A DNA stretch of 64,000 nucleotides from Natrialba swarupiae (GTDB lineage: Archaea > Halobacteriota > Halobacteria > Halobacteriales > Natrialbaceae), in assembly GCF_008245225.1 (NCBI RefSeq), contig NZ_VTAW01000002.1:186001-250000 (forward strand), read 5' to 3'. Of the stretch, positions 3,188 through 34,506 are shown one piece after another. The position numbers and the translations under genes are program-made. How positions within the stretch are numbered: position 1 is the stretch's first letter; the number at the start of each line of letters is the position of its first letter. Below the pieces are notes generated by a model that did no database searches, had not been told where the DNA came from, and was given only the letters and a program-made list of their open reading frames with translations.

Positions 3188-3191
3188 TAGA

Positions 3192-4211: not shown

Positions 4212-4214
4212 ACA

Positions 4215-4967
4215 ATGGAAGTAACAGTACGCAACCTGGACGGCTCGGACGCGGACTCGGTCGAGCTCCCGGCGGTCTTCGACACGCAGTACCGCCCGGA
4301 TCTGATCGCTCGTGCCGTTCGCGTCGCCCAGGCAAACCGAAAACAGGATTACGGCGCCGACGAGTTCGCCGGCAAACGAACGCCGGCCGAATCGCTCGGT
4401 AGCGGTCGCGGGATGGCACACGTCCCGCGACAGGACGGTCGTGCCCGCCGCGTTCCCCAGGCGGTCAAGGGACGCAAGGCACACCCGCCGAAAGCCGAGA
4501 AAGAGCAGGGAGAATCGATCAACACGAAGACGAAGAAACTCGCCATCCGAAGCGCGGTCGCCGCGACGACCGACGCCGAACTGGTCGCCGAACGTGGCCA
4601 CCGCTTCGACGCCGACACGGACGTTCCGGTCGTCGTCGACGACGAGTTCGAGGACCTCCAGAAGACGAAGGAGGTCGTCGAGTTCCTCGAGGCCGCCGGC
4701 ATCGCCGACGACATCGAACGCGCCGAGGAGGGCCGCAGCGTCCGCTCTGGTCAGGGGAAAGCCCGTGGCCGGAAGTACAAGACGCCAAAGTCGATCCTTT
4801 TCGTCACCTCGAGCGAGACCGGCCCATCCCGGGCCGCACGAAATCTCGCCGGGGCCGACGTCGCGACGGCCGCCGAGGTCAACGCAGAGGATCTCGCACC
4901 CGGCGCACAGCCGGGTCGACTAACCGTCTGGACCGAAAGCGCACTCGAGGAGGTGGCGGACCGATGA
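4215..4967 (+). CDS. rpl4: 50S ribosomal protein uL4
   Basis: A 250-residue archaeal uL4 (L1e-type). The extended loop that lines the nascent-chain tunnel is visible at about residues 48-100 (DEFAGKRTPAESLGSGRGMAH, basic and glycine-rich). The globular part continues through RSGQGKARGRKYK and ends LTVWTESALEEVADR. The protein contacts 23S rRNA domain I. Its stop overlaps the uL23 start by 4 nt, suggesting translational coupling. Confidence 0.98.
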   Translation: MEVTVRNLDGSDADSVELPAVFDTQYRPDLIARAVRVAQANRKQDYGADEFAGKRTPAESLGSGRGMAHVPRQDGRARRVPQAVKGRKAHPPKAEKEQGESINTKTKKLAIRSAVAATTDAELVAERGHRFDADTDVPVVVDDEFEDLQKTKEVVEFLEAAGIADDIERAEEGRSVRSGQGKARGRKYKTPKSILFVTSSETGPSRAARNLAGADVATAAEVNAEDLAPGAQPGRLTVWTESALEEVADR

Positions 4968-5218
4968 CCGGTATCATCGAACACCCGCTCGTGACGGAGA
5001 AGGCGATGAACGACATGGACTTCGAGAACAAGCTCCAGTTCGTCGTCAACCCGGATGCGACCAAACACGACATTCGTGATGCGGTCGAAGAGCGCTTCGA
5101 CGTCTCGGTCGACAACATCAACACCCAGCTAACGATGAAGGGCAAGAAGAAAGCGACAGTTCGACTCTCCGAGGACGACGACGCCCAGGAAGTCGCCTCG
5201 CGTATCGGGGTGTTCTGA
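4964..5218 (+). CDS. rpl23: 50S ribosomal protein uL23
   Basis: An 84-residue protein starting MTGIIEHPLVTEKAM, with the family core KLQFVVNPDATKHDIRDAVEERFDV. It has the short archaeal form without a long N-terminal extension. uL23 lies at the exit of the ribosomal tunnel and is a docking point for signal recognition particle and other nascent-chain factors. It overlaps uL4 by 4 nt and is separated from uL2 by one base. Confidence 0.98.
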   Translation: MTGIIEHPLVTEKAMNDMDFENKLQFVVNPDATKHDIRDAVEERFDVSVDNINTQLTMKGKKKATVRLSEDDDAQEVASRIGVF

Positions 5219-5219
5219 G

Positions 5220-5942
5220 ATGGGACGACGAATTCTCGGACAGCGACGTGGTCGCGGTACCTCCACGTTCCGTGCCCCGTCGCACCGATACAAGGCGAAG
5301 CTCGATCACAAGAAAGAAGAGGACGGCGACGTCGTTCGCGGAACGGTTGTGGATATCGAACACGATCCGGCCCGCTCAGCGCCGATTGCCGCCATCGAGT
5401 TCGACGACGGTGATCAGCGACTCGTGCTCGCTCCGGAAGGAATCGGCGTCGGCGAGGAGATCCAAGTCGGCGTCTCCGCGGAGATCAAACCCGGCAACAC
5501 GATGCCGCTCGCGGAGATTCCCGAAGGTGTGCCGGTCTGTAACGTCGAAGCCAACCCCGGCGACGGCGGGAAGTTCGCCCGGGCGTCTGGAACGAACGCG
5601 GACCTGATCACCCACGACCGCAACGCCGCGGTCGTCCAGCTGCCAAGCGGCGAGGTCAAGCGCCTCGATCCGCAGTGTCGTGCCACCATCGGCGTCGTCG
5701 CCGGTGGCGGACGCACGGAGAAACCGATGGTCAAAGCCGGAAACAAGTACCACAAGATGAAAGCCCGCGGGACCAAGTGGCCCCGCGTCCGCGGTGTCGC
5801 GATGAACGCCGTCGACCACCCGTTCGGTGGCGGCGGCCGCCAACACCCGGGGAAACCGAAATCCGTCTCGCGGGACGCCCCGCCGGGACGCAAAGTCGGT
5901 GACATTTCCTCGCGCCGAACCGGCCGAGGTGGAAACAAATGA
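5220..5942 (+). CDS. rpl2: 50S ribosomal protein uL2
   Basis: A 240-residue protein starting [17 protein letters not shown]. The C-terminal motif [17 protein letters not shown] contains the conserved histidine and glycine loop that approaches the peptidyl-transferase centre. The middle part is the SH3-like and OB-like fold (residues about 85-200). It is essential for subunit joining and catalytic-centre structure. Its stop overlaps the start of uS19 by 4 nt. Confidence 0.98.
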
Positions 5943-6364
5943 GCCAGGAGTACCGAACCGGCCGTGAGGGTGAGGAGTTCACCTACCGCGGTCACACCGT
6001 CGAGGAGCTGCAGGAGATGGAGCTCGAAGACGTCGCGGAACTGCTGCCCGCACGCAAGCGGCGAAGTATCAAACGCGGCCTCTCCGTCGAGAAACAAAAG
6101 CTTCTCGAGAAGGCCCGCGAGAAAGGCGAAGAGGAGACGGCAAACGCGCCGATCCGGACCCACCTTCGTGATATGCCGATCCTGCCGGAGTTCGTCGGTC
6201 TCACGTTCGAGGTGTACAACGGACAGTCGTTCGAGCGCGTCCGCGTCGAGCCCGAGATGATCGGACACTATCTCGGCGAGTTCCAGCTGACTCGCAACTC
6301 CGTCGAACACGGACAGGCTGGTATCGGCGCGACTCGATCGTCGAAGTTCGTCCCACTGAAGTGA
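5939..6364 (+). CDS. rps19: 30S ribosomal protein uS19
   Basis: A 141-residue protein with the archaeal N-terminal extension ([20 protein letters not shown]) before the family core. The core signatures are [20 protein letters not shown] and the ending [29 protein letters not shown]. It sits in the head of the small subunit near the A site, together with uS13. It overlaps uL2 by 4 nt, and 7 nt separate it from uL22. Confidence 0.98.
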
Positions 6365-6371
6365 TCCACGC

Positions 6372-6857
6372 ATGGGAATCAACTACTCAGTCGACGCCGA
6401 CCCGGACGCCACCGCGAAAGCGATGCTTCGGGAGCGTCACATGAGCCACAAGCACAGCAAAGAAATCGCGCGCGAACTGAAGGGACGAACCGTCGACGAC
6501 GCACAGGCGTACCTTCAGGACGTGATCGACGGCGAACAGTCGGTTCCGTTCAAGTCCCACAACAGCGGCGTCGGACACCGTTCCGACATCGACGGCTGGG
6601 ACGCAGGCCGGTATCCCGAGAAGGCCTCCAAGGCGTTTCTCGACTTACTCGAGAACGTCGAGGCCAACGCCGACCATCAGGGATTCGACGGTTCGTCGAT
6701 GGAGATCGTCCACGTCGCCGCCCACAAGGTCGGCGAGGCGGTCGGTCGTAAACCCCGTGCGATGGGCCGAGCATCGGCCTGGAACACGCCCGAAGTCGAC
6801 GTCGAAATCGTCGTCGAGGACGCCGACGAAAGCGAATCCGAGGAGGACGACAACTAA
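6372..6857 (+). CDS. rpl22: 50S ribosomal protein uL22
   Basis: A 161-residue archaeal uL22. The globular domain shows KAMLRERHMSHKHSKEIARELKG, and the tunnel-wall hairpin region follows at GRKPRAMGRASAWNTPEVDVEIVVED. The last roughly 15 residues are nearly all D/E/S, a haloarchaeal acidic tail. The stop and the uS3 start share one base (TAATG), so the two are coupled. Confidence 0.98.
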   Translation: MGINYSVDADPDATAKAMLRERHMSHKHSKEIARELKGRTVDDAQAYLQDVIDGEQSVPFKSHNSGVGHRSDIDGWDAGRYPEKASKAFLDLLENVEANADHQGFDGSSMEIVHVAAHKVGEAVGRKPRAMGRASAWNTPEVDVEIVVEDADESESEEDDN

Positions 6858-7828
6858 TGGCTGACGAACACCAGTTCATCGAAAACGGCCTGCAGCGGTC
6901 CCAGATAGACGAGTTCTTCCAGGAAGAGCTCGGCCGCGCGGGCTACGGTGGCATGGACGTCGCCAAAACGCCGATGGGAACCCAGATCGTCCTCAAGGCA
7001 GAGAAGCCAGGGATGGTCATCGGCAAAGGCGGCGAGAACATCCGAAAGGTCACGACGGCGCTCGAAGAGCGCTTCAACCTCGAGGATCCCCAGATCGACG
7101 TCCAGGAGGTCGACGAGCCGGATCTCAACGCCCGGATCGTCGCGGACCGACTGGCGAACGCACTCGAGCGCGGCTGGTACTTCCGCAAAGCCGGTCACAC
7201 GACGATCGACCGGATCATGGAAGCCGGTGCGCTCGGCGCCGAGATCGTCCTCTCCGGGAAGGTCACGGGCGCTCGCTCGCGCGTCGAGAAGTTCAACCGA
7301 GGATACATCAAGCACAACGGCGAACCCGCCGAGGAGATCGTCGACCACGGTCAGGGCGTCGCCGTCATGAAGCTCGGAACGATCGGCGTCACGGTCAAGA
7401 TCATCCCGCCGAACGCCGAACTCCCCGACGACTTCGGCGTCCACGAGGACCTCGATCCCGAAGAGCTCGTTCCCGATGCCGTCGAGGCCAACGAGGCCGA
7501 GGGTGTCGAGGAACTGCTCGAGGGCGAACCCGAGGAAGCGGAAGCCGTCGAGGCCGGCGTCGAAGCGCCGGCCGACGAGGCCGTCGAGACGGCGGCTGAC
7601 GAGGACGGCGACCTCGACGAGGAAGTCGTCGAAGAGGTCATCGAGGAGGAACTCGAGGACGACGACGCTGAGGCCGACGCTGACGCCGACGCGGACGACG
7701 AGGCCGACGCCGAGGAGGACCTCGAGGACCTCGAAGAGGACGTCGAGGCCGAAGCCGAAGAGCTGATGGCCGAGATGGAAGACGAGGAAGCCACAGACGA
7801 AAGCGACGACGAGGGAGGTGACGCCTGA
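6857..7828 (+). CDS. rps3: 30S ribosomal protein uS3 with a long acidic tail
   Basis: A 323-residue protein. The KH domain is at about residues 15-90, with the GxxG RNA-binding loop inside [14 protein letters not shown], followed by the C-terminal S3 domain to about residue 200. From about residue 205 to the end (nt 7470-7828) it is an Asp/Glu/Ala-rich extension of nearly 120 residues, longer than the fold needs. uS3 lies at the mRNA entry site. It overlaps uL22 and uL29 by one base each. Confidence 0.97.
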
Positions 7829-8040
7829 TGGCGATCATCCACGTCGAGGAAATTCGCGACATGACGCCCGCCGAACGCGAGGAGGAACTCGAGGAACTCG
7901 AGACCGAACTCCTGAACGCCAAATCCGTCCTCGCAGCCGGTGGTGCCCCGGAGAACCCGGGTCGAATCGGCGAACTCGGACGGACGATCGCGCGGATCAA
8001 GACGATCCAGCAGGAAGAAGACGATTTCGACGACGAATAA
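7828..8040 (+). CDS. rpl29: 50S ribosomal protein uL29
   Basis: A 70-residue two-helix protein ([20 protein letters not shown], then [14 protein letters not shown]) of typical archaeal length. It sits next to uL23 near the tunnel exit. The start shares one base with the uS3 stop, and 7 nt separate it from the RNase P gene. Confidence 0.96.
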
Positions 8041-8047
8041 CACAGCA

Positions 8048-8452
8048 ATGGCACTGACACCCGAGACGCTCCCCCGACACGAACTCAACGGGCTTCCGGT
8101 CCGCGTCGTCGACAGCGACGACGACGGACGGGTCGGCCTCGAGGGCCGCGTCGTCATCGAGACGACGAACACACTCTCGATAGAGGTTCGAACCGACGGG
8201 GAGTCCCGGGTCGTCACGGTGCCAAAATCGGGCTCGACGTTCGAGTTCGCGATCACAGATGAAGCCGCCGACTCCACGAAGGAGTCGGGGACTACGTCCA
8301 AACTGGCCGACACTCAACCTGGTGGAACCGAGCGATCGGCACCATCAGACAGCGCTGGCGAGGGTGTAGCCTACGTTACGGTCGATGGATCGCGACTGCT
8401 CTCACGACCCGCCCGACGCACGGAAACGAATGGTGACTCACCATGGCAATAG
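8048..8452 (+). CDS. rnp1: RNase P protein component 1 (Rpp29/Pop4-like)
   Basis: A 134-residue protein. The N-terminal 80 or so residues give the Sm-like barrel of archaeal Rpp29 (LPRHELNGLPVRVVDSDDDG, then GRVVIETTNTLSIEV). It supports 5' maturation of tRNAs as part of RNase P, working with Rpp21. A gap of about 45 hydrophilic residues precedes the last conserved strand (YVTVDGSRLLSRPARR), so it is longer than minimal Rpp29. The ATG at 8048 follows uL29 by 7 nt, and the end overlaps uS17 by 10 nt. This position between uL29 and uS17 is typical for archaea. Confidence 0.93.
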   Translation: MALTPETLPRHELNGLPVRVVDSDDDGRVGLEGRVVIETTNTLSIEVRTDGESRVVTVPKSGSTFEFAITDEAADSTKESGTTSKLADTQPGGTERSAPSDSAGEGVAYVTVDGSRLLSRPARRTETNGDSPWQ

Positions 8453-8880
8453 GACTAGACGTTGAAACCCCTCCGGAACCTGAGAATCCGGAGGAATACG
8501 ACTACGAGAAGTGCCCGTTCTACGGCGACCTTTCCGTTCGAGGACAGATCCTCGAGGGGCAGGTCGTCTCGACGGACATGGACAAGACCGTAGTCGTCGA
8601 ACGAGAGTACGATGTAGCGGTTCCGAAGTACGACCGCTCCATGAAACGACGCTCGCGCATTCCGGCTCACGTGCCGGGCGTGCTCGAGCCGCTCTCGGTC
8701 GGTGACACGGTCAAGATCGCAGAGACCCGACCACTGTCGAAGACGAAATCGCACGTGGTCGTCGAAATAACCGAAGAAGCGACTGCGGTGGACGTCGCCG
8801 AGCTGACGGGGCAGGCAGAGCCTGAGCCGGAACTCTCGGACGAAGACCTCGCCGCGGCTGCAGACGAAGGTGATGAGTGA
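8443..8880 (+). CDS. rps17: 30S ribosomal protein uS17
   Basis: A 145-residue protein. The OB-fold core includes [22 protein letters not shown] and [22 protein letters not shown]. An N-terminal archaeal extension (residues 1-30) and an acidic C-terminal tail of about 35 residues flank it. It binds 16S rRNA in the body. It starts inside the last codons of rnp1 (10-nt overlap), and its stop shares one base with the uL14 ATG. Confidence 0.97.
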
Positions 8881-9278
8881 TGGAGGCGATGAAAGCTGAC
8901 GTCACCCAGGGACTCAAGAAGGGGTCGCTGGTCACGTGTGCCGACAACACGGGCGCACGTGAACTCAAAGTCATCAGCGTCGCGGGCTACCACGGCACCA
9001 AGAACCGCCAGCCGAAGGCGGGACTCGGTGACAAAGTGACCGTCTCGGTCACGAAGGGGACCCCCGAGATGCGCCGACAGGTTCTCGAGGCAGTCATCGT
9101 CCGCCAGCGGAAGTCGGTCCGCCGACCGGACGGCACTCGACTCAAGTTCGAGGACAACGCGGCGGTCATCATCGACGAGAACGAAGAGCCCCGCGGCACG
9201 GAGATCAAGGGGCCGATCGCCCGCGAAGTCGCAGAGCGCTTCGGAGCAATCGCCAGCACGGCGACGATGATCGTATAG
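8880..9278 (+). CDS. rpl14: 50S ribosomal protein uL14
   Basis: A 132-residue protein starting [17 protein letters not shown]. Family motifs are [16 protein letters not shown] and [12 protein letters not shown] near the end. A GTG one codon upstream is also in frame, but the ATG at 8880 matches the usual haloarchaeal length and gives a TGATG junction with uS17. uL14 forms part of the intersubunit surface and the factor-binding region. Confidence 0.97.
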
Positions 9279-9281
9279 ACA

Positions 9282-9638
9282 ATGAGCAAACAACCACACA
9301 AACAGCGAAATCAGACGGAGCGTGCCCCGCTGCACCAGCGAGGGAAGCAGCTTCACGCGACGCTCTCCGAGGACCTCCGCGAGGAGTACGACACGCGTCG
9401 AACCCGCGTCAACGCGGGCGATACGGTCGAGGTCATGCGTGGCGACCACGCCGGCGAGGAAGGCGAGGTTCTACGCGTCGTCCTCGAGGACGGCGTCATC
9501 CACGTCGAGGACGTGACGATCGAGACGGCCGACGGCGAGGAAGTTCCCCGTCCGCTCGACTCTTCGAACGTTCGAATTACGGACCTCGATCTCTCGGACG
9601 AGCGTCGCGAGGCGCGTCTCGAAGGTGATAGCGAATGA
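9282..9638 (+). CDS. rpl24: 50S ribosomal protein uL24
   Basis: A 118-residue protein with a KOW motif ([21 protein letters not shown], about residues 44-64). The basic N-terminus ([21 protein letters not shown]) is typical of archaeal L24. It is one of the early assembly proteins and contacts 23S rRNA near the tunnel exit. The end overlaps eS4 by 4 nt. Confidence 0.97.
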
Positions 9639-10342
9639 CGAAACACCAGAAACGACTCTCAGTTCCGAACTCCTGGCCGGTCGAGCGAAAGACCGATGTC
9701 TTCACGGTCAAAGCCGGTGGCGGACCGCACGGCGAAGACGGCGTTCCACTCGTCGTTCTTCTGCGGGACGTCCTCGGCTACGTGGACTCCACGAAGGAAG
9801 CGCGCTACGCCCTTTCGGAGGATTCGATCCTCGTCAACGGCGTCGCGATCAACGACGAACAGCGTCCGATCGGAATCTTCGACATCATCGCCTTCCCCGG
9901 ACGAGAGGAGTACTACCGTGTCTTCCCCGACGAGGGCGGTCGGCTCGCGCTGACCGAAATCGACGAGGAGGCCGCCGGGAGTCGCCTCGGCAAGATCGAC
10001 GGCAAACGCCAGGTCTCCGGCGGCGACACCCAGCTTACGCTTCACGATGGGACGAACGTCATCGTCGACGACCCATCCTACAGCGCAAACGACTCCATCG
10101 TCGTCGACAACGAGGACAAATCGATCGTCGCACACTTCCCCTACGAGGAAGGTGCGCTCGTCACCGCCATCCAGGGCAACCACGGCGGCAAGATCGGCGA
10201 GATCGAAGCGATCGATGTCACGCCCGGAAGTGGCTCGAACACCGTCACCGTCTCCACTGACGACGGCGGGTTCGAGACCGTCGAAGAGTACGTCGTCGTG
10301 ATCGACGAGAACTTTACTGACGACGGAGGTGACGACGAATGA
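9635..10342 (+). CDS. rps4e: 30S ribosomal protein eS4
   Basis: A 235-residue archaeal and eukaryotic-specific eS4. Visible parts are the N-terminal [17 protein letters not shown], an S4-type RNA-binding segment at about 45-105 ([20 protein letters not shown]), a central domain, and a KOW-like stretch near 175-190 ([20 protein letters not shown]). It overlaps uL24 and uL5 by 4 nt each, so it is translationally coupled on both sides. Confidence 0.97.
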
Positions 10343-10878
10343 GCGAAGCCGAATCCGGCGAGTTCCACGAGATGCGCAAACCCCGCGTCGAGAAGGTCGT
10401 CGTCCACATGGGCGTCGGTCAGGGTGGCCGTGAACTCGGCAAAGCCGAGGACATCATCGAGGAGGTCACGGACCAACAGAGCGTCCGTACCCAGGCCAAA
10501 CACACCGAACCCGACTTCGGCATCCGCCAGGGCGACCCGATCGGCACGAAGGTCACCATCCGTGGCGAAGACGCCCACGAGTTCCTCGAGACGGCTCTGC
10601 CGATCGCGGAGCTCTCGTCGTCGCAGTTCGACGACACGGGCAACTTCAGCTTCGGCATCGCCGAACACACGGATTTCCCGAGTCAGGAGTACGACCCGAA
10701 CGTCGGGATCTACGGTCTGGACGTCACCGTGAACCTGGTCCGTCCGGGCTACCGTATCGCCAAACGTGACAAGGCGACGCGGTCGATCCCCTCGAGTCAC
10801 CGACTCACCCCCGAGGACGCGGTCGCGTTCCTCGAGGCGAACTTCGACGTCACCGTAGAGGACCCCGAGGATGAGTGA
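10339..10878 (+). CDS. rpl5: 50S ribosomal protein uL5
   Basis: A 179-residue protein with motifs [20 protein letters not shown] and [20 protein letters not shown]. uL5 binds 5S rRNA together with uL18 and forms part of the central protuberance that touches the P-site tRNA. The start overlaps eS4 by 4 nt, and the end overlaps uS14 by 8 nt. Confidence 0.97.
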
Positions 10879-11053
10879 AAGCGAACACGAACACGACAGC
10901 ACGGGCGAGCACGCCGCAAAGCGCACGGGCCAGGAAGCGGCCTGCCAGCGTTGTGGCCGCAAGCAAGGCCTGGTTGGCAAGTACGACATCAACCTCTGCC
11001 GGCAGTGCTTCCGCGAGATCGCCCGCGACATGGGATTCAAGAAGTACCGATAA
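10871..11053 (+). CDS. rps14: 30S ribosomal protein uS14 (zinc-binding form)
   Basis: A 60-residue protein. The four zinc-ligand cysteines are present in two CxxC pairs ([19 protein letters not shown] and RQCF), followed by [13 protein letters not shown], the typical archaeal ending. An acidic, histidine-rich N-terminus of about 20 residues precedes the finger. It lies in the 30S head. It overlaps uL5 by 8 nt and is one base from uS8. Confidence 0.97.
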
Positions 11054-11054
11054 C

Positions 11055-11447
11055 ATGACTGGAAATGATCCACTCAGCAACGCGCTCTCGGGGCTCGACA
11101 ACGCCGAGAGCGTCGGTAAACTGAGCCACGAGGTAACGCCCGCCTCGAACGAGATCGGCAGCGTACTCGAGGTCTTCTACGACCGCGGGTACATCGACGG
11201 CTTCGAGTACGTCGACGACGGTAAAGCCGGTCAGTTCGAGATCGAACTGCGAGGAGCGATCAACGCCTGCGGACCCGTCAAACCCCGATACAGCGCCGGT
11301 GCCGACGACTTCGAGAAGTGGGAGAAACGATTCCTCCCGGCTCGAGACTTCGGTGCACTCGTCGTCACGACGAGCAGTGGCATCATGAGCCACTACGAAG
11401 CGCGCGAACAGGGGATCGGCGGCCAGGTGATCGCATACGTCTACTAA
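11055..11447 (+). CDS. rps8: 30S ribosomal protein uS8
   Basis: A 130-residue protein starting [18 protein letters not shown]. Its C-terminal signature is [28 protein letters not shown]. It binds the central domain of 16S rRNA. The ATG at 11055 is used because it lies one base after the uS14 stop and gives the standard length; a longer upstream frame overlaps uS14 and has no uS8 similarity. Confidence 0.97.
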
Positions 11448-11449
11448 CC

Positions 11450-11983
11450 ATGCGAGTCGAACTGGAAATCCCCGACAACGTAACCGTCGAGATCGACCAT
11501 CTCGACGTGACCGTCGACGGCCCAGAAGGCACCGTTACCCGGCGTCTCTGGTACCCCGACGTGAGCGTCGACGTGGAAGACGACAGCGTGGTAATCGAAA
11601 GCGAGTCCGAGGACGCGAAAACGAACGCGACCGTCGGCACCTTCGAGAGCCACGTCGAGAACGCCTTCCGCGGCGTGACCGATGGATGGGAGTACAAGAT
11701 GGAAGTCTTCTACTCTCACTTTCCAATGCAGGTCCGCGCGGAGGGCGAGGAAGTCGTCATCGAGAACTTCCTCGGCGAGAAGGCACCGCGACGAACGAAC
11801 ATCCACGGTGACACCGACGTCTCCGTCGACGGCGAAGTCGTCGTCCTCTCCGGCCCGAACAAAGAGGACGTCGGCCAGACGGCGGCAGACATCGAACAGC
11901 TGACCCGAGTCAGCGGCAAGGACACCCGCGTCTTCCAGGACGGGGTCTACATCACCGAGAAACCCGCCAAAAGAGGTGTCTGA
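11450..11983 (+). CDS. rpl6: 50S ribosomal protein uL6
   Basis: A 177-residue protein with the two-repeat uL6 layout: VTVDGPEGTVTRRL in the first half, and FLGEKAPRRTNIHGDTDVSV near the conserved rRNA-binding region of the second. It is located near the factor-binding site and sarcin-ricin loop. The ATG at 11450 lies 2 nt after uS8, and 3 nt separate it from eL32. Confidence 0.97.
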   Translation: MRVELEIPDNVTVEIDHLDVTVDGPEGTVTRRLWYPDVSVDVEDDSVVIESESEDAKTNATVGTFESHVENAFRGVTDGWEYKMEVFYSHFPMQVRAEGEEVVIENFLGEKAPRRTNIHGDTDVSVDGEVVVLSGPNKEDVGQTAADIEQLTRVSGKDTRVFQDGVYITEKPAKRGV

Positions 11984-11986
11984 TAG

Positions 11987-12733
11987 ATGGCAGACGACGA
12001 ACCAGAAACTGAGGAGACGCCGGCCGACGACGGACCGGAGGAACTCGAGGACATCAGTGGCGTCGGCGCAAGCAAGGCCGATGCCTTGCGCGAGGCCGGC
12101 TTCGAGTCCATCGAGGACGTCAAGGAAGCCGACCAGGACGATCTGGCCGAAGCCGAGGGTATCGGCAACGCGCTCGCCGCGCGTATCAAGGCTGACGTCG
12201 GCGATCTCGAGGTCTCCGAGGAGACCGAAGCGGAGATCGAAGACGACGGCGTTGACGAAGAAGAGGAACTGGCCGAGGACGTCGAGACGGAACTGCAGCC
12301 TCGTGGACTGGTCGAGAAGACGCCGGAGCTCTCCGATGAGGAGACACGGCTTCTCGAGCGCCGTAAGAGCGAGGGGAAGCCGCAGTTCAACCGCCAGGAT
12401 TACCACATGAAAAAACGGACGCCGGAATCCTGGCGCCGCCCCCGCGGACAGCTCTCGAAACAGCGCCGTGGCGTCAAGGGCAAAGGGCCGACTGTCGAAG
12501 CCGGCTACCGAACGCCCGACGCCGTTCGGGGAAAACACCCCAGCGGCTTCGAGGAGGTCTACGTCGAGAACACGGACGACCTCGAGGGCGTCGACGGCGA
12601 CACGGAAGCGGTCCGTATCGCGTCCTCGGTTGGCGCGCGCAAGCGCGAGCGGATCGAGGAGACGGCGGAAGACGAGGGCATTCGTGTCCTGAACCCAACG
12701 TACGAAGAAGTCGAGGTGGAATCCGATGACTGA
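11987..12733 (+). CDS. rpl32e: 50S ribosomal protein eL32 with N-terminal helix-hairpin-helix extension
   Basis: A 248-residue protein, while the eL32 core is about 130. Residues 20-75 form a helix-hairpin-helix repeat ([19 protein letters not shown], then [13 protein letters not shown]), followed by an acidic linker. The eL32 domain begins at about 120 ([20 protein letters not shown]) and contains [20 protein letters not shown]. Such N-terminal extensions are known in haloarchaeal eL32. It overlaps eL19 by 8 nt. Confidence 0.96.
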
Positions 12734-13175
12734 TCTCTCCGCACAGAAGCGACTCGCGGCCGACGTCTTGGACGTCGGAAAGAATCGCATCTGGCTCGAC
12801 CCGAGCGCCCAGGCCGATATCGCCGAAGCGATCACGCGCGACGAGATCCGCGAACTCGTCGACGAGGGCCTCATCCAGGCCGAAGACGCAACGGGCAACT
12901 CCCGCGGCCGAGCCCGCGAGCGCAACGCAAAGCGCGCCTACGGCCACCAGAAGGGGCCAGGCAAGCGCCGCGGCAAGAAGGGTGCCCGCCAGAATCCCAA
13001 AGACGAGTGGCAGAACAAGATTCGTGCACAGCGACGGAAGCTGCGCGAACTCCGTGACAAGGGCGAGGTTACGCCCACGCAGTACCGCGAGCTCTACAAG
13101 AAGGCTGGCGGTGGGGAGTTCCGTAGCGTCCAATACCTGTTGAATTATATCAACGAAAACTACGGTGACCAATAA
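12726..13175 (+). CDS. rpl19e: 50S ribosomal protein eL19
   Basis: A 149-residue archaeal and eukaryotic eL19 with motifs [20 protein letters not shown] and a highly basic middle ([19 protein letters not shown]), then a long helix to the C-terminus. It takes part in an intersubunit bridge at the large-subunit base. The start overlaps eL32 by 8 nt, and the last base is shared with the uL18 ATG. Confidence 0.97.
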
Positions 13176-13723
13176 TGGCGACAGGACCACGATACAAGGT
13201 GCCGATGCGGCGTCGGCGCGAGGTCCGGACGGACTACCATCAGAGGTTGCGCCTGCTAAAATCGGGCAAGCCCCGCCTCGTTGCTCGCAAGAGCAACAAG
13301 CACACTACGGCGCAGCTGATCGTTCCCGGACCCAACGGCGACGAAACGCTCGCGAGCGCACACTCGAGCGATCTCGAGGAGTACGGCTGGGACGCCCCCA
13401 CGAGCAACATTTCGGCGGCGTACCTGACCGGCCTGCTAGCCGGCCAGCGAGCCGTCGACGCTGGTCTCGAGGAAGCGGTTCTCGATATCGGCCTCAACAC
13501 CGCGACGCCCGGCAACAAGGTGTTCGCGGTTCAGGAAGGCGCAATCGACGCCGGCCTCGAGATACCGCACAACGATAGCGTGCTCGCGGACTGGTCGCGT
13601 ACCCGCGGCGAGCATATCGCCGAGTACGCAGAACAGCTAGACGAGCCGCTGTACAGCGGCGAGTTCGACGCGACCGAACTCCCAGAACACTTCGACGACG
13701 TACGAGAGGCGATTCTCGAATGA
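13175..13723 (+). CDS. rpl18: 50S ribosomal protein uL18
   Basis: A 182-residue protein of the archaeal L18/L5e type, starting [25 protein letters not shown]. The 5S rRNA-binding N-terminal region is followed by the globular part with [12 protein letters not shown] and [21 protein letters not shown]. It joins 5S rRNA to the central protuberance together with uL5. It overlaps uS5 by 4 nt. Confidence 0.97.
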
Positions 13724-14382
13724 GTGGAAACAACTACAATGACGACGGATGGGAACCCGTCACCCGTCTCGGCCGGAAGGTCCAGGAGGGCGAAATCGAC
13801 ACGATGGAAGCCGCCCTCAACTCGGGGCTCCCGCTGAAGGAACCCGAGATCGTCGACCAGCTCCTCCCTGGACTGGACGACGAAGTGCTGGACATCAACA
13901 TGGTCCAGCGAATGACCGACTCGGGCCGCCGCGTGAAGTTCCGATGTGTCGTCGTCGTGGGCAACCGCGACGGCTACGTCGGCTACGCGGAAGGCCGAGA
14001 CGATCAGGTCGGCTCCGCCATCCAGAAGGCGATCGGTATCGCGAAGCTGAACATGCTCAAGGTCCCTCGAGGATCCGGCTCGTGGGAGGACCGTTCGGAG
14101 CGGCCACACTCGCTGAGCCGACGGACGACCGGAAAGGCCGGCTCCGTCGAGGTTGAGGTCATCCCGGCCCCCGAAGGGCTCGGACTGGCCGCGAGTGACA
14201 CCGTCCGCCACGTCCTCGAACTGGCCGGTCTCGAGAACGCTTGGACCAAGAGCCACGGCAATACGCGCACGACCGTCAACCTCGCGAAGGCGACGTTCAA
14301 CGCGCTCGAGAACGCTTCGCAGTCCCGACAACCGGCACCGCGCACAAGCGACCGTGACGAAGCCGAGGTGGCCGACCAATGA
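13720..14382 (+). CDS. rps5: 30S ribosomal protein uS5
   Basis: A 220-residue protein. The double-stranded-RNA-binding-like N-terminal domain includes [28 protein letters not shown], and the C-terminal domain includes [24 protein letters not shown]. It is important for decoding accuracy near the mRNA entry channel. It overlaps uL18 and uL30 by 4 nt each. Confidence 0.97.
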
Positions 14383-14846
14383 AGGCAATCGTCCAGATTC
14401 GCGGTGAAGTGAACCGCCAGCAGGACGTCCAGGACACCCTGGAGATGCTCAACATCCACAGCGTCAACCACTGTGCGCTCGTCCCCGAGACCGACACCTA
14501 TCAGGGGATGATCACCAAGGTCAACGACTACGTCGCACACGGTGAGCCGACGGAGGACGTTCTCGCGACGCTGCTCGAAAAGCGCGCCGAACCCCTCGAG
14601 GGCAACCAGTCCGACGTCGACGGGGAGTGGCTCGCGGAGAACACCGAGTACGACGACTTCGACGCACTCGCGAACGCCCTCCTCACAGAGGAGACGACGC
14701 TTCGAGACGTTGGGCTGTCGCCGACGCTTCGGCTCCACCCACCACGTGGTGGTCACGACGGTATCAAAAAGCCGACCGTCGAGGGAGGCCAACTCGGAAA
14801 GCATACAACAGAGCAGATTAACGACCTGCTAGAATCGATGCGATAA
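14379..14846 (+). CDS. rpl30: 50S ribosomal protein uL30
   Basis: A 155-residue archaeal uL30 with N-terminal [21 protein letters not shown] and the core [21 protein letters not shown]. The archaeal C-terminal extension ends [21 protein letters not shown] plus an acidic helix. It overlaps uS5 by 4 nt and ends 2 nt before uL15. Confidence 0.97.
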
Positions 14847-14848
14847 CC

Positions 14849-15331
14849 ATGACGAGTAAAAAACGACGTCAGCGCGGATCGCGGACACATAGCGGTGGTA
14901 CCCACAAGAATCGACGGGGTGCTGGCCACCGTGGCGGACGCGGCCGCGCCGGACGAAGCAAACACGAGTTCCACAACTACGAACCGAAAGGCAAACACGG
15001 CTTCAAACGTCCACACGACATCCGCGAGGAGGTCGTAGAGATCGATGTCCAGAAGTTAGACGAGGACGCCATCCTCTACGTTGCCGACGATCTCGCCGAC
15101 GAGGCCAACGGTGGCTACGAACTGGATGCTCGCGACATCGTCGAAGACGGACACGAAGCCGACGTCGTCAAAGTCCTCGGATCCGGCCAGGTCCGCAACC
15201 AGCTGACGGTGACGGCCGACGCCTTCTCCGAGGCCGCTCGAGAGAAACTCGAGGCTGCCGGCGGTGAGGCAGTGCTCTCGGAGCGAGCACAGGACGCTGA
15301 AGACGACGACTCCGAACAGAACGAGGACTAA
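14849..15331 (+). CDS. rpl15: 50S ribosomal protein uL15
   Basis: A 160-residue protein. The basic, glycine-rich N-terminal arm (KKRRQRGSRTHSGGTHKNRRG, HRGGRGRAGRSKHEF) threads through 23S rRNA, and the globular C-terminal domain ends with an acidic haloarchaeal tail. It has the usual place between uL30 and SecY, and it ends 3 nt before secY. Confidence 0.97.
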   Translation: MTSKKRRQRGSRTHSGGTHKNRRGAGHRGGRGRAGRSKHEFHNYEPKGKHGFKRPHDIREEVVEIDVQKLDEDAILYVADDLADEANGGYELDARDIVEDGHEADVVKVLGSGQVRNQLTVTADAFSEAAREKLEAAGGEAVLSERAQDAEDDDSEQNED

Positions 15332-29736: not shown

Positions 29737-30641
29737 CGCTCCGTGGCCCGCCCGGCGATCGGTCGCCGGCCGAACTCCTGACGTTCGGCGTCGTCAACCT
29801 GGACAAACCGCCGGGTCCATCCTCGCATCAGGTCAGTGGGTGGATACGTGACGCCGTCGACGAGAAACTCTCGACGCTCGAGGCGAGCGAACCGATCGAT
29901 CGTGCCGCGCACGCGGGGACGCTCGATCCGAAGGTAACTGGCTGTCTTCCGGTTATGCTCGGCGACGCAACCCGTCTCGCGCAGGTGTTTCTCGAGGGGA
30001 AAAAGGAGTACGTTGCTGTCCTCGAGTGTCACGGTCGGGTGCCGTCGGACGCAGAATCGATCGTCGCCGAGTTCGAGGGACCGATCTACCAGAAGCCGCC
30101 GCGAAAGAGCGCCGTCTCTCGTCGGTTGCGCGTTCGAACCATTCACGACCTCGACGTTCTGGAACGAGAAGAGCGACGGATCCTGTTACGGATCCGGTGT
30201 GAGAGCGGCACTTACGTTCGAAAACTCTGTCACGACCTTGGACTTGCGATGGGGACGGGCGGTCACATGGGCGCGCTCCGCCGAACGATGACGGAGCCGT
30301 TCGACGATACGGACCTTCATACCGCGACCGAGTTCCTCGATGCACTCGCGTTCTGGCTCGAGGACGACGATCCGGAACCGCTGTACGACGTCGTCGACCC
30401 AGCCGAGCGAATTCTCGAAAATCTGGCGCGGGTAACGATCGCCGAGAGCGCCGCACACGAAGTTGCAAACGGCGCACCGGTCTACGCACCCGGCGTACTC
30501 GACGTCGGCAGCGACGCCAGCCACGGTGACCTCGTCGCCTGTTTCACACCCGCAGGTGCGGCGGTCTGTCTCGGTGAACTCGTCGGCAGCCGTGAGGCCG
30601 ATTCGGGTGTCGTCGTGGATCTCGAGCGTGTTCTCGTCTAA
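29733..30641 (+). CDS. cbf5: tRNA/rRNA pseudouridine synthase Cbf5
   Basis: A 302-residue protein. The catalytic aspartate is in [22 protein letters not shown]. Other family motifs are [20 protein letters not shown] and [22 protein letters not shown]-terminal PUA domain (about 225-302) binds guide RNA. Cbf5 modifies rRNA as the catalytic part of H/ACA particles and can also act on tRNA U55. The start ATG at 29733 overlaps cmk by 4 nt. The tRNA-Pro gene follows 84 nt downstream. Confidence 0.95.
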
Positions 30642-30692
30642 CTCCGGCCAACGACTCGAGTTCCGATCCGTGTGGGCAAAGCGAAACGACAC

Positions 30693-30700
30693 GCTTAAAC
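30693..30700 (+). promoter_or_regulatory. TATA-like element of tRNA-Pro
   Basis: GCTTAAAC lies 26-33 nt upstream of the mature tRNA start at 30726, in the right place for a tRNA promoter. Confidence 0.45.
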
Positions 30701-30725
30701 AGCAGACGGCCGTCGATCCACGTGC

Positions 30726-30796
30726 GGGACCGTGGGGTAGTGGTATCCTCTGCGGATGGGGTCCGTAGGACCCGAGTTCAATTCTCGGCGGTCCCA
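30726..30796 (+). tRNA. tRNA-Pro (anticodon GGG)
   Basis: A 71-nt cloverleaf. The acceptor stem is GGGACCG/CGGTCCC with discriminator A. The anticodon stem is TGCGG/CCGTA around the loop ATGGGGT (anticodon GGG). The T arm has CGAG/CTCG with loop TTCAATT. No intron or encoded CCA. Its 3' end borders a lower-GC block, a common place for integration. Confidence 0.93.
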
Positions 30797-31124
30797 CTGG
30801 AATTTTAATAACACGAGAAAATAAGAACCTCAGACACCTCTTTGTTCAACGTTCTCATACCGAGGTGTGCAATAAATGATACACTGGAAATCCAGCGTAT
30901 CGGCTCGAAACCGGTATCAGAAATGTGGTAGTCACGTCACTGGTGAGTTCCGCCGCGCGTACGGGTCACTTCGAGTTGGATATTAGAGATGACCCTGTTT
31001 CCAGAGGAATCGGTTACGGCCTACGAGTTTGCGACATGACCAATAATTGAGCCCGACCCACTAGAATCCTAGTAAATATGACACCTTCTGGGAGCTACTA
31101 CCCTGAGCGGTCCGCTTGATTTGT
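30797..31124. other. AT-rich intergenic region after tRNA-Pro
   Basis: About 330 nt with no supported gene. It holds two small palindromes: a near-perfect hairpin at 30878-30901 (GATACACTGG with CCAGCGTATC) and ACTAG-AATC-CTAGT at 31060-31073, close to the 3' end of the DUF59 gene. No second copy of the tRNA-Pro 3' end was found by eye. Confidence 0.5.
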
Positions 31125-31484
31125 TCACTCATCTGCTTGTTCACGGAGATACCTCCGTTTGTGTTCGTCTATAACTGCCTGTCGCCGCTGTTTGGCCTGC
31201 TCAGTCATCATATCAGGAGACCACTCGAACCCATTGTCGGTTTCCAACTCGACCGTTTTAATCTCCGAGAAGTCTTCCAGGCAATCCTCGACTTCCTCCA
31301 TGAAGTATGGAATCATGTGACAGGACGGTGTAGTAAGCCGCATCTGGATGAGTGCTTTGTCTTCTCTAATTTCGATAGATTCGACAAGCCCCATCTCGAC
31401 GATGTCGAGGTTCGAACCAGTCGCAGCACTACACGGATCGACGATCTCACGCAGGGAGTCACGGACCCGTTCAGTCGTGCTCAT
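31125..31484 (-). CDS. DUF59/MIP18-type metal-sulfur cluster assembly factor
   Basis: A 119-residue protein. The pattern LREIVDPCSAATGSNLDIVEMGLVESIEI followed by LTTPSCHMIPYFMEEVEDCL is the DUF59 fold, with the conserved cysteine in the TxPxC motif. Family members help load iron-sulfur or other metal centres onto client enzymes. The ATG at 31484 overlaps the upstream amidohydrolase stop by 4 nt. The pair plus the divergent alcohol dehydrogenase resembles genes that accompany bacterial propane or other soluble diiron monooxygenases. Here no monooxygenase gene is visible. Confidence 0.85.
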   Translation of the reverse strand: MSTTERVRDSLREIVDPCSAATGSNLDIVEMGLVESIEIREDKALIQMRLTTPSCHMIPYFMEEVEDCLEDFSEIKTVELETDNGFEWSPDMMTEQAKQRRQAVIDEHKRRYLREQADE

Positions 31485-32551
31485 GTTGTGGCCACCTCGA
31501 AGTTCGTTGTTGACCACGGATCCGCGACCTCACCGTCAGACTCATCAGCTTCGGTTTGTGCCCTGAGTTCGTCGAGGTCAAATCCGTGTGCCTTAGCAAA
31601 ATTCTCGCCGAGGATTTTTTGTTTGTCTTCCTGAGTTATTGTGAACGTTCCGGCAAAACCATCCATCTCCGGGAAATCGAACTCCCAGAACCGCTCGAGA
31701 AGCAGTTGCGGATGGAAGTGAGGAGCACCCGTGCCCCAAATGAGTTTGTCTACCGCCTGTTTTCCACCTGCGTACAGAAGTTCCTGCATTGTGTCTACGA
31801 ACGTTTTCGGCGTGGTTACGGCTTCGGACAGTGTCAACTCCAGATTGATGTAGACGTTGGGGTGGCGCATGATCTGCCAGCCAGTCTCCTCCGCGAAGGT
31901 CAGACCACCGTGAACTATCTCGAAGTTCAGATCTGGGAAACTGATCGCGGCTTCCTCAATATCATCGACCTTATACGGTTTCATCGGAACCGTACCGAAG
32001 GGGAACGCTTTGTGTACGGCTACGACATCCAGTCCAAGATCGGCAGCGTGTTCCCATAGTGGAAATGCAGTTTCTGGATCGTCCATTCTGAAACCGCGAT
32101 GAGTGCCGTCTGCTTCCCAGTATGATGGGTATATCTTCACACCGTGTGCACCTAACTCTTCGACCTGTCTCGTCAACTCTTCTTTCGGATTATCCATTCC
32201 AATCGGATCGATTCCGGCCAGGGCTGCCCCCTGGTTCGGGTTCCTCTCTACGAATTGCTTTGCTTTCTCGTATGAGGTTAACCCATCCTCGAAGACCATG
32301 ATCGTTTGCGGGTGGAAAACACTGAAGTCGGTAGCACTCTCCTGAAATAGCGTGGACTCAGTGTCTGCGAGTTGCCAGTCGTCGAGGAACGTCTCTTCTG
32401 TTCGAACGTATTTGTCTGGCATCGACGATTCCAACCCGTATCCGTTTCTGGCGACCGGCTCGGCTTGTTCGGCAACCCGATAATTCGAGGGCGACAGGTT
32501 GTATGAATGTGATACGGCGTCGACCACGAGGGTATCGTCCAATGATACCAT
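31481..32551 (-). CDS. amidohydrolase-2 family protein
   Basis: A 356-residue TIM-barrel protein of the amidohydrolase-2 (PF04909-like) family. It begins LVVDAVSHSYNLSPSNY, where the family often has a DxHxH metal motif; only one histidine is evident here, so metal ligation may be altered. Later features are GAHGVKIYPSYW, VVAVHKAFPFG, and FEIVHGGLTFAEE. The substrate is unknown. In bacterial propane-monooxygenase loci a similar protein is encoded with DUF59 and alcohol dehydrogenase genes, which suggests a role in diiron-enzyme maturation or acetone-type metabolism. The start at 32551 (MVSLDD) is preferred over an ATG 27 nt upstream. Base composition is less GC-rich than in flanking genes. 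Confidence 0.8.
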   Translation of the reverse strand: MVSLDDTLVVDAVSHSYNLSPSNYRVAEQAEPVARNGYGLESSMPDKYVRTEETFLDDWQLADTESTLFQESATDFSVFHPQTIMVFEDGLTSYEKAKQFVERNPNQGAALAGIDPIGMDNPKEELTRQVEELGAHGVKIYPSYWEADGTHRGFRMDDPETAFPLWEHAADLGLDVVAVHKAFPFGTVPMKPYKVDDIEEAAISFPDLNFEIVHGGLTFAEETGWQIMRHPNVYINLELTLSEAVTTPKTFVDTMQELLYAGGKQAVDKLIWGTGAPHFHPQLLLERFWEFDFPEMDGFAGTFTITQEDKQKILGENFAKAHGFDLDELRAQTEADESDGEVADPWSTTNFEVATT

Positions 32552-32687
32552 ACACCATACATGGTGAATATCCTTCAAAATCCTTTCTCAAATGGACATT
32601 GAATAAACAGATACATAAAGAACCATTTCTGCCTACATTGGCACTCTCACACAAGAAATAACTGTGATGAGTTAACTTACACCAATC
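32552..32687. promoter_or_regulatory. AT-rich divergent promoter region
   Basis: The 136 nt between the divergent amidohydrolase and alcohol dehydrogenase genes are strongly AT-rich, with several TATA-like tracts (GAATAAACAGATACATAAAG, about 32601-32620). One shared control region is likely. Confidence 0.5.
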
Positions 32688-33719
32688 ATGGACGCTGCAC
32701 GCCTGCATGAATACACAGACGAGATGTCGATGGCGTTTTCGTTTGAGGAGTTACCAAGGCCGGAACCGGAACGATCAGACGATATTGTCGTTCGCATCGA
32801 AGCAGCAGGGTGGTGTCACACCGACAACCATATCGTCCATGGAGATTTTGAAGGGGTTGCGGATATCAATTTGCCGCACACCCCAGGCCACGAGAACGCT
32901 GGCACCGTAGAGTCGGTCGGTGACGAAGTGACAGCAGTGGACCCCGGTGATGAGGTAGTCCTTCATCCAGCACTCACGTGTGGAACCTGTCGCTCCTGTC
33001 GACTCGGTGAAGAAATGTACTGCGATGAACACGTGTTTTGCGGTATGGACACGGACGGTGGATTCGCAGAGTATATGCGAACAAGCGAACGGAGTGCAGT
33101 CCAGCTAACCAACGTAGATCCCGTCGAGGCGGCACCTCACGCAGACGCTGGACTTACGGCCTATCGAGCAGTCAAGCGCGCACGTGCCAATCTCGTACCA
33201 GGTGATACGGTGCTTGCAATCGGAGTTGGTGGCCTCGGACACATCGGCATTCAATTGCTCGATGAACTGACAGCAGCTACAATCATCGCCGCAGACATCA
33301 AAGATGAGGCGCTCGCATTAGCAGATTCTGCCGACCATACTGTAAATCTCAGAGACGAGGAGATATCTGAGCTAGTCGATACAGTGACTGATGAACACGG
33401 TATCGATGCGATACTCGATTTTGTTGGTTCCGACGAGACGCTTGATCTCGGCTTGTCGTTGCTGAAACAGGGCGGGGATCACTACGTCGTCGGCTATGGC
33501 GGTCACGTGACTGCACCGGCTCAGGCGATGGTGGGTCTCGAGATCAATTACTGTGGAACGCTGTGCGGATCATTCACTGAACTCCAAGAATTGATGTCGT
33601 TGGTAGAGGATGGACAAATTGACGTTCGGACCGTCGAGTATCCGCTCGCGGAAATAAACGACGTCGCCGCAAAACTGGAAGACGGTGAAATCCAAGGGCG
33701 AGCAGTCCTCAAGCCCTGA
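32688..33719 (+). CDS. zinc-dependent alcohol dehydrogenase
   Basis: A 343-residue medium-chain dehydrogenase. Catalytic zinc ligands are in GWCHTDNH (Cys42) and GHENAG. The structural zinc lobe has four cysteines (CGTCRSCRLGEEMYC). The Rossmann NAD(P) loop is GVGGLG (about 182-187). It oxidises an alcohol or reduces a carbonyl; the substrate is not visible in the sequence. It diverges from the amidohydrolase-DUF59 pair. The codon use is visibly less GC-rich than in neighbouring genes, which suggests transfer as a block next to tRNA-Pro. Confidence 0.93.
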   Translation: MDAARLHEYTDEMSMAFSFEELPRPEPERSDDIVVRIEAAGWCHTDNHIVHGDFEGVADINLPHTPGHENAGTVESVGDEVTAVDPGDEVVLHPALTCGTCRSCRLGEEMYCDEHVFCGMDTDGGFAEYMRTSERSAVQLTNVDPVEAAPHADAGLTAYRAVKRARANLVPGDTVLAIGVGGLGHIGIQLLDELTAATIIAADIKDEALALADSADHTVNLRDEEISELVDTVTDEHGIDAILDFVGSDETLDLGLSLLKQGGDHYVVGYGGHVTAPAQAMVGLEINYCGTLCGSFTELQELMSLVEDGQIDVRTVEYPLAEINDVAAKLEDGEIQGRAVLKP

Positions 33720-33747
33720 AACAAAAGCAGATTCTCGGTACTTCTTG

Positions 33748-33906
33748 TCAGGAGACGTCACCGTACGTCAACGTTTCGTTCTCGCAAACGACGAACCTCG
33801 CCAACTCCCGCTTCGAGTGATTCTCGAGCAGATGGTTCTCGAGCGTCAGCGTCGGCTCGACGACTCGACGACAGAGGGGGCACTCGACGGGAGTTTTCGA
33901 CGCCAT
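33748..33906 (-). CDS. small C2H2-like zinc-finger protein
   Basis: A 52-residue protein with CPLCRRVVEPTLTLENHLLENH, which is a CxxC followed by HxxxxH with C2H2-type spacing, so it probably binds one zinc. It ends with FVVCENETLTYGDVS. Such one-finger proteins are common in haloarchaea and most are uncharacterised. It converges with the alcohol dehydrogenase (28 nt between stops). Confidence 0.6.
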   Translation of the reverse strand: MASKTPVECPLCRRVVEPTLTLENHLLENHSKRELARFVVCENETLTYGDVS

Positions 33907-34163
33907 ACCGTCGAATCGGGCCGTGGACCCAAAAGTATGGAGCAAGCACTGTACGGACCGAAACGGTTCCGACTCGAGCTGTAAACTGATACAAAGATTC
34001 AAGCGGTCGGACCGTCCAGATAGGAGTGTACGTTCAATGACCGCAAGGGACGGCATCACTCCCACAGATCGACGTGTCGTTCGGGAACACTGGTCTCGTT
34101 CGGCGACCTCACGACGACGTGTGCGTTCGACGGAGGCGGGGACACGGGTCGAACGGTGAGTCG

Positions 34164-34424
34164 ATGATCGGCGTACTCGAGAACCGACTGCCGCCAGAGG
34201 TTACGAGGACGACGCTGTATCACGTCGTGCGTCTCGTGTTGCGGCTGTACGTGGGAAGTTTGCTCGTCGCCGGGGTGTACAGTCTGCTCTGGGTCGCTGA
34301 CGTCGCGGGACTGATCCCGGAAGCGCTGTTGTCGACGATCTGGATCGGAATCGCGGTCATGGGATCGCTCTTTCTCGTCCTCCTGATTCCACTGTTCTAC
34401 ACGTCACGCTCGAGCCACCGGTAA
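34164..34424 (+). CDS. small two-helix membrane protein
   Basis: An 86-residue protein with two hydrophobic helices (about 31-50 and 58-79) after an amphipathic N-terminal part (MIGVLENRLPPEVTRTTLYH). No family is recognised. The ATG at 34164 is preferred to earlier in-frame starts because upstream residues are arginine-rich and unlike haloarchaeal proteins. Confidence 0.55.
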   Translation: MIGVLENRLPPEVTRTTLYHVVRLVLRLYVGSLLVAGVYSLLWVADVAGLIPEALLSTIWIGIAVMGSLFLVLLIPLFYTSRSSHR

Positions 34425-34506
34425 TCTGCTCAGGATTCGGCTCGAGTCGTCCGTACCTTCCTCGAAATTCGAGGCGTTTAACCCGTCGTCATCCGGATCT
34501 AGTACT

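Follow-up and report, generated by a model that had tools for sequence, protein, structure and literature searches.

An inserted amidohydrolase-DUF59-alcohol dehydrogenase module in Natrialba swarupiae with a predicted altered metal site and no diiron hydroxylase found in the genome

Results

A divergent three-gene module of low GC content follows tRNA-Pro

A 64,000-nucleotide stretch of the Natrialba swarupiae genome (RefSeq assembly GCF_008245225.1, contig NZ_VTAW01000002.1, positions 186,001 to 250,000; hereafter the window) carries genes for an amidohydrolase-fold protein (AH), a DUF59 protein and an alcohol dehydrogenase (ADH) directly after a tRNA-Pro gene. An earlier note on this DNA had described the three as a compact divergent module of AT-richer composition and codon use, and both descriptions are borne out by the features below (window coordinates) and by the base composition.

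30726-30797, + strand: tRNA-Pro (GGG), called by ARAGORN; left border of the insertion
30798-33747, no strand: low-GC inserted stretch with three genes; DNA match absent in seven relatives; GC minimum
31125-31484, - strand: DUF59/MIP18-type protein, 119 amino acids (aa); PF01883, 40.1 bits (cut-off 23.5)
31481-32551, - strand: AH, 356 aa, clade B of the family tree described below; PF04909, 84.5 bits (cut-off 26.4)
32552-32687, no strand: divergent intergenic region, 136 bp, 35% GC; from composition and gene orientation
32688-33719, + strand: zinc-dependent medium-chain ADH, 343 aa; PF08240 (ADH_N), 98.7 bits, and PF00107 (ADH_zinc_N), 62.1 bits

The AH stop codon overlaps the DUF59 start as ATGA (31481-31484), which fits translational coupling; the DUF59 gene is read here from the ATG at 31484, and the scans reported below used 31125-31490, which is two residues longer. 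The AH-DUF59 pair and ADH are divergently oriented, and from this orientation alone the region between them presumably holds both promoters. The module lies between tRNA-Pro and a gene for Nmad3 (34507). Its GC content of 51.4% is the minimum of the window (start near 30801) in a scan in steps of 200 bases with windows of 2,923 bases, for which the mean is 62.1% and the standard deviation 3.0. The module genes have a third-position GC of 0.53-0.59, against 0.68 for the TruB gene just upstream and 0.79-0.84 for the genes for EMC3, Nmad3 and MatE.

The module is inserted at a variable site

The combination of TruB and tRNA-Pro is retained in 7/7 related loci (L162-L168), none of which contains a match to the module DNA. 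The left-side match stops at 30796-30814 in six relatives and at 30964 in L167. On the right, it resumes at 33748 in L163 (genome G308) and at 34191-34506 in L162, L164 and L165; the right flank lies outside the stretch compared in L166, L167 and L168 (genomes G312, G119 and G004). In G130 the next syntenic match begins only ∼0.83 kb beyond the tRNA, and the interval has no open reading frame (ORF) of at least 100 codons; compared with that genome, the module has therefore been inserted. Unmatched sequence at the site amounts to ∼4.8 kb in G308, ∼7.3 kb in G116 and ∼10.2 kb in G047. An att-like repeat or duplicated tRNA 3' end was looked for at the site and not found, and no integrase is encoded within the insert. 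The tRNA-Pro gene thus lies at the edge of an inserted segment, the site being variable, and an integrase-made origin is possible: the insertion implied by the earlier proposal of a tRNA integration site is confirmed, but the hallmarks of integrase action were not detected.

AH and DUF59 form a clade separate from their propane-operon relatives

The gene families of the module are those of the prm/mim operons of Gordonia and Mycobacterium, in which amidohydrolase, DUF59, adh1 and groEL are accessory genes according to the accessible parts of PMC6849523; such genes also appear in the excerpts of PMC9213486. By the former source, AH and DUF59 have been noted in propane-oxidation operons since Kotani 2003; the literature excerpts covered here assign them no function. 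The likeness that had been proposed for the window holds at this level: AH and DUF59 genes lie beside hydroxylase genes in the bacterial loci L079, L080, L081 and L082, with ADH within the stretch in three of them and none annotated in L081. The window shares with these operons the same families side by side, with AH adjoining DUF59, but its module has neither hydroxylase nor GroEL. The prm/mim AHs are only 24-31% identical to the window AH, which lacks two of the metal ligands, and their DUF59 proteins are ∼250 aa long, whereas that of the window has 119 aa and an extra Cys.

The AH family was resolved into three clades in quick maximum-likelihood trees, with SH-aLRT (Shimodaira-Hasegawa-like approximate likelihood ratio test) as the sole measure of support and long-branch joins regarded as unsure. 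Clade A (25 rows) received a support of 99 and clade C (3 rows) of 100 in the same tree. Clade B, which contains the window AH, received 90 (44 rows) in the tree without outgroups, which leaves out L077, three outgroup rows, L001 and L056. When outgroups were included, 46/47 clade B rows grouped together with a support of 93, and L077 joined clade C by a long branch. Clade A contains the proteins of soluble diiron monooxygenase (SDIMO) operons together with a haloarchaeal branch, and its DUF59 partners are long (237-300 aa). By sequence, the AH and DUF59 of the window are not of the propane-operon type; they belong to a separate clade with altered metal ligands and an added Cys.

Metal ligands of AH and cysteines of its partner change by clade

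What we take to be the metal ligands of amidohydrolases, namely an HxH motif, a His on strand 5, a His on strand 6 and an Asp on strand 8, were tabulated from an alignment of 78 rows. His13, His15, His180, His214 and Asp275 are all present in 24/25 clade A rows, the exception being L086, in which the second HxH histidine is missing. Among the 47 clade B rows, near-copies included, His13 and Asp275 are absent (0/47 each), the former replaced by Val, Ile or Ser and the latter by Gly, Ala or, in L077, Glu. His15, His180, His214 and an additional residue, His280, occur in 47/47 each. Clade C has Ala and Glu at the lost-ligand positions, plus His280. In clade A His280 occurs in one of 25 rows, L116 from the genus of the window, beside the full old ligand set. 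The PF04909 (Amidohydro_2) family includes ACMSD and gamma-resorcylate decarboxylase. The window AH shares its profile but departs from the canonical metal site at the first His of HxH and at the strand-8 Asp. Lys139, Tyr141, His180, Lys181, Asp197, His214, Asn232 and Lys310 are kept in 55/55 sequences, as expected of an active site. An AlphaFold2 model of AH built from two sequences (window and L001) had a mean pLDDT (predicted local distance difference test) of 42.0, too low for the model to be of use. A single-sequence search of the PDB with AH returned nothing at E 0.01, and the sole match in a profile search was the uncharacterised BB4693 (3irs).

The window DUF59 has Cys18 in 'DPCS' and Cys55 in 'TTPSC' (20 and 57 in the two-residue-longer numbering). 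It shares its domain and the T-x-x-x-C cysteine, invariant in 19 aligned DUF59 proteins, with SufT/MIP18/PaaD-type proteins (PF01883; TM0487, 1uwd), but differs from them by a Cys-bearing insert ('DPCSxA'). It scored below every cut-off of the NCBIfam SUF-associated, SufT and PaaD models (46.5/143.4, 45.8/202.6, 41.6/180 and 29.4/108.15 bits, score/cut-off). The motif DPC[STA] is present in 39/39 clade B partners tested. Clade A partners have 'DPEL' instead (24 partners and L078), and the three other PF01883 proteins of the Natrialba swarupiae genome have no Cys at the DPC position.

AH is paired with an iron-sulfur-type carrier in archaea and bacteria

A search of 391 haloarchaeal genomes with AH (E 0.001) gave matches, many of them distant, in 205. 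DUF59 directly follows AH in 40/40 haloarchaeal clade B loci (L032-L071, the window's own included); 38 of these pairings came from the gene caller and two, L061 and L064, from translation, and L001 and L033 are the same sequence. Bacterial clade B loci have the same order in 5/6 cases, on plasmids of Rhodococcus, Sphingopyxis, Bradyrhizobium, Sinorhizobium and Streptomyces; at the Nonomuraea locus (L077) neither the gene caller nor translation revealed a partner gene. A DUF59 neighbour is present in 25/25 clade A rows, preceding AH in L078. In clade C, NifU lies directly downstream of AH in 3/3 loci, on plasmids of Shinella, Ensifer and Pararhizobium (L083, L169, L170), and Pfam assigns the Shinella partner to PF01106 (NifU). 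An iron-sulfur-type carrier is thus encoded next to AH almost without exception: a long DUF59 in clade A, a short Cys-bearing DUF59 in clade B and NifU in clade C. In a scan of 75 loci the ATGA overlap was detected in 28, that in L073 being doubtful. The accompanying pattern scan for DUF59 found none at L077, L083, L169 and L170; it also missed L058-L060, L062, L074, L076 and L078, where DUF59 was seen otherwise, and L061, which contains a run of N.

Clade B pairs elsewhere (in Halostagnicola A-GB9-2, L001, and in Natrinema, Natronorubrum, Bradyrhizobium, Sphingopyxis and Rhodococcus) have AHs 34-73% identical to that of the window and share its ligand pattern, gene order and, where read, DPC-type DUF59. 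They differ in their neighbours: no ADH of such identity to that of the window adjoins those read, and they lie beside short-chain dehydrogenases/reductases (SDRs), AMP-ligases, thiolases, transporters or other ADHs, or apparently alone. Close clade B pairs have no constant third gene across genera, shared neighbours being mostly genus-wide. Near distant pairs we found sugar-type ABC (ATP-binding cassette) transporters, SDR, aldehyde dehydrogenase, aldehyde ferredoxin oxidoreductase (AFOR), AMP-ligase and thiolase with an OB-fold protein, and near others 2-oxoacid dehydrogenase subunits, thiolase and acyl-CoA dehydrogenase. Such neighbours would suit a setting in which alcohols are converted to carbonyls and on to acyl-CoA. 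In one genus (L045-L048) a gene of 64-67 aa stands beside the pair, upstream and divergent in three loci and downstream in L045, where it encodes a cold-shock-domain protein (PF00313).

The alcohol dehydrogenase resembles those of haloarchaeal clade A modules

The solved structure nearest to ADH is 1h2b, and others include ADH-A, the secondary-alcohol dehydrogenase of Rhodococcus ruber. Its translation contains a four-Cys stretch, CGTCRSCRLGEEMYC, which is presumably the zinc motif. Matches at E 1e-100 were found in 217/391 haloarchaea, the best among the matches listed being 53-60% identical; identity to the ADHs of the bacterial loci L079 and L082 is 40-44%. ADH adjoins AH-DUF59 in 15/16 haloarchaeal clade A loci hand-picked from the match listing, the exception being L130. 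The arrangement in these modules (e.g., Halomicrococcus L084 and Halorarius L174) is ADH beside AH and a long DUF59, mostly divergent as in the window, with a same-strand form in G308 (L116). Their ADHs are 49-58% identical to that of the window, but their AHs are of the other clade and ∼27% identical. A FastTree of ADHs from 20 retrieved ADH loci and from the clade A neighbourhoods (midpoint root, long branches, support value not read) grouped the window ADH with that of same-genus G308, whose partner is a clade A pair.

Across 75 genomes selected for having a row in both listings, the window's own included, ADH and an AH are no more than 5 kb apart in 70 (exceptions G178, G316, G014, G256 and G283); where several AHs were present the clade A-like one was taken, so 70/75 is not an unbiased rate, genomes and AH rows both having been selected. 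ADH-family genes only 28-36% identical to that of the window occur in seven other clade B loci and adjoin the pair in L049 (two ADHs, 36% and 30%) and in the more distant L057 (one, 32%). In L069, a second AH (28% identical) and the edge of an ADH (57%) lie ∼12 kb from the clade B pair. Since a clade A-type ADH stands beside a clade B pair, the window module is read as a hybrid, which suggests that clade A and clade B pairs may substitute for each other.

No diiron hydroxylase was found in the genome

Searching the whole Natrialba swarupiae genome (4.2 Mb, 99 contigs) for the diiron hydroxylase family PF02332 gave no match. Because 14 standard control genomes were silent for this family, five plasmid records were searched instead, of which three were positive (L080, L079 and T. 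roseum) and two negative (L084 and L086). On the T. roseum plasmid (NC_011961; L078) a DUF59-AH-ADH module lies ∼370 kb from the SDIMO hydroxylase genes (near 899-902 kb). Only four of the 391 haloarchaea (G064, G095, G216 and G348) have PF02332. The G216 cluster (L113) comprises two PF02332 subunits, TmoB, Rieske and MmoB, with catechol-dioxygenase-like and IclR neighbours; it is, from its gene content, toluene-monooxygenase-like and is the sole haloarchaeal cluster typed. By tblastn, hydroxylase subunits are 69-98% identical among L112-L115 (G064, G216, G095 and G348). In L112 a 430-aa gene on the opposite strand separates the two hydroxylase genes. AH had no match in G064 and G095, and one match each in G216 and G348, a clade B ortholog; among the matches listed, a clade A-like AH is present in 0/4 of these genomes.

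When tblastn was run with PrmA, PrmC, TmoA, TmoE and GroEL, six control loci were positive, and the window, 40 clade B loci and 18 haloarchaeal clade A loci had no match. Nor was a diiron hydroxylase among the neighbours retrieved for the 40 haloarchaeal clade B loci, in all of which AH and DUF59 are adjacent, a comparison of neighbourhoods that the earlier note had put forward. There is no GroEL/MimG-like gene in the window, and no genome-wide search for one was made; a GroEL-like gene, 28% identical, lies on another contig (L136).

Other features of the window

Rfam reported nothing at gathering score over 30500-34500, the ARAGORN-called tRNA-Pro included, and neither PADLOC nor viral contigs gave a match. 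Just right of the insertion a small ORF (33748-33906, - strand) shows a CxxC...HxxxxH pattern; G308 has DNA 70% identical to it, and Pfam gives no match. Across 12 kb (3001-15000) the AT skew is strongly positive (0.22-0.37 per kb), the maximum of the window.

Discussion

Neither a hydroxylase in the module nor one elsewhere in the genome was found, as the note that proposed a propane-type context had claimed for the former but left open for the latter. Of its two options, an oxygenase lying elsewhere is not supported, given the PF02332-negative genome and the rarity of the family in haloarchaea, the one typed cluster being toluene-monooxygenase-like; a different metabolic role is the better. 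Of the three proteins, ADH alone is of the kind found next to the propane-operon-like clade in haloarchaea; AH and DUF59 are of a separate clade. The tie between the window module and propane monooxygenase is distant, and this genome lends no support to a propane-oxygenase frame.

We tentatively favour, short of an even chance, an explanation in which the insert is a small catabolic module, and no remnant of a propane monooxygenase, where AH handles the product of ADH and is loaded with metal via DUF59. The substrate of ADH would be a small alcohol, probably a secondary one, which the enzyme would oxidise to a ketone or aldehyde. DUF59 would be a dedicated factor that loads, or services, the metal of AH, most likely iron. 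The metal-loaded AH would then act on the carbonyl product of ADH or on a derived compound, feeding acids or acyl-CoA. The strongest sign that carrier and enzyme act on the same metal is that the carrier Cys and the AH ligands change together by clade; with only three clades, this co-change amounts to no more than one or two events. According to the available parts of PMC7176365, the Mim cluster's AH-like protein accounted for 3.2% and Adh1 for 6.1% of the proteome of an actinobacterium growing on 2-hydroxyisobutyrate, a compound that it degrades via acetone, and induction was strong on acetone as well.

Several points weigh against this explanation. For no family member among those found have substrate, metal or activity been described so far, and an open-access literature search found no paper giving a function for the AH-DUF59 pair. 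Because two canonical ligands are missing throughout clade B, AH could be an inactive scaffold; with zero conserved Cys it is not an ordinary iron-sulfur protein, and only its partner points to iron as the metal. Neighbourhoods differ from one clade B locus to the next. The adjacency of ADH may be accidental, since the window alone, out of the 19 distinct loci with close clade B pairs (59-100% identity), has an ADH of such identity beside the pair. ADH also occurs without AH, 11/20 ADH loci having none in their 1.5 kb flanks. Abundance cannot separate enzyme from helper, because the chaperonin MimG reached 4.0% of the same proteome (PMC7176365, excerpts).

A bolder and doubtful possibility is that the amidohydrolase fold has given rise, in clades B and C, to a new kind of metalloenzyme, its canonical site rebuilt as a His-rich iron site (His15, His180, His214 and His280) that the carrier fills or keeps in the reduced state, acting non-hydrolytically, possibly with O2 or by C-C cleavage, on carbonyls from alcohol catabolism. 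Its signature would be the joint change of carrier Cys (Cys-bearing DUF59 in clade B, NifU in clade C) and enzyme ligands.

Also doubtful is a maturation complex of AH and DUF59 for some other metalloenzyme, with AH as a non-catalytic scaffold and ADH unrelated or a client. The loss of two canonical ligands in clade B, the membership of the partner in an assembly-factor family and the AFOR or oxygenase genes near some pairs would all suit such a role, but close clade B pairs have no constant third gene across genera; the eight residues invariant in 55/55 sequences also look like an active site. An ordinary zinc-dependent role for AH, as amidohydrolase or decarboxylase, with DUF59 a mere operon companion, is unlikely: the PF04909 score well over the cut-off and the full ligand set of clade A are set against the two ligands gone in clade B, the pairing with a carrier in both bacteria and archaea (of NifU type in clade C) and the coincidence by clade of the carrier's added Cys with the AH ligand change. 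It is more improbable still that this low-GC stretch is foreign DNA in decay, without function in its host, as insertion by a tRNA, a GC content of 51.4% against 62.1% and the failure to find an integrase or att repeat might suggest, since its three frames are intact and the clade ligands and ATGA overlap are retained.

Finally, an orphaned accessory module that serves or matures the hydroxylase of a propane-type SDIMO encoded elsewhere is very improbable and close to refuted here: although the same gene families occur in SDIMO operons, the T. roseum module shares one plasmid with SDIMO genes at a distance and, in the available text of PMC6849523, Mycobacterium sp. AT1 has its AH, DUF59 and ADH genes apart from the oxygenase, the genome has no PF02332 match under a positive control, the four haloarchaea with PF02332 (L113 being toluene-monooxygenase-like) have no clade A-like AH among the matches listed, and the window AH is in another clade than those of SDIMO operons. 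Citing Furuya 2013, the same source, in the parts seen, describes oxygenase expression as dependent on the GroEL-like protein. The excerpts of PMC11057499 on a group 6 SDIMO do not mention 'hydrolase'. A 'metal-sulfur cluster' gene in the accessible part of PMC10694973 was considered as an AH-DUF59 pair and rejected, being PaaD of a phenylacetate cluster, and a functional guess for a Gordonia propane-type operon in the portion available of a proteomics study (PMC11852219) was not adopted.

That the AH-DUF59 pair is so widely found where no diiron hydroxylase accompanies it sets it apart from oxygenase maturation. AH and DUF59 were reportedly dispensable for oxygenase expression. The picture left is of an enzyme-carrier pair that is widespread and uncharacterised, has an altered metal site and lies here within an inserted hybrid module. 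Because the carrier changes (long DUF59, Cys-bearing DUF59, NifU) along with the AH ligands, the loading of metal into a dedicated client by DUF59 becomes directly and cheaply testable.

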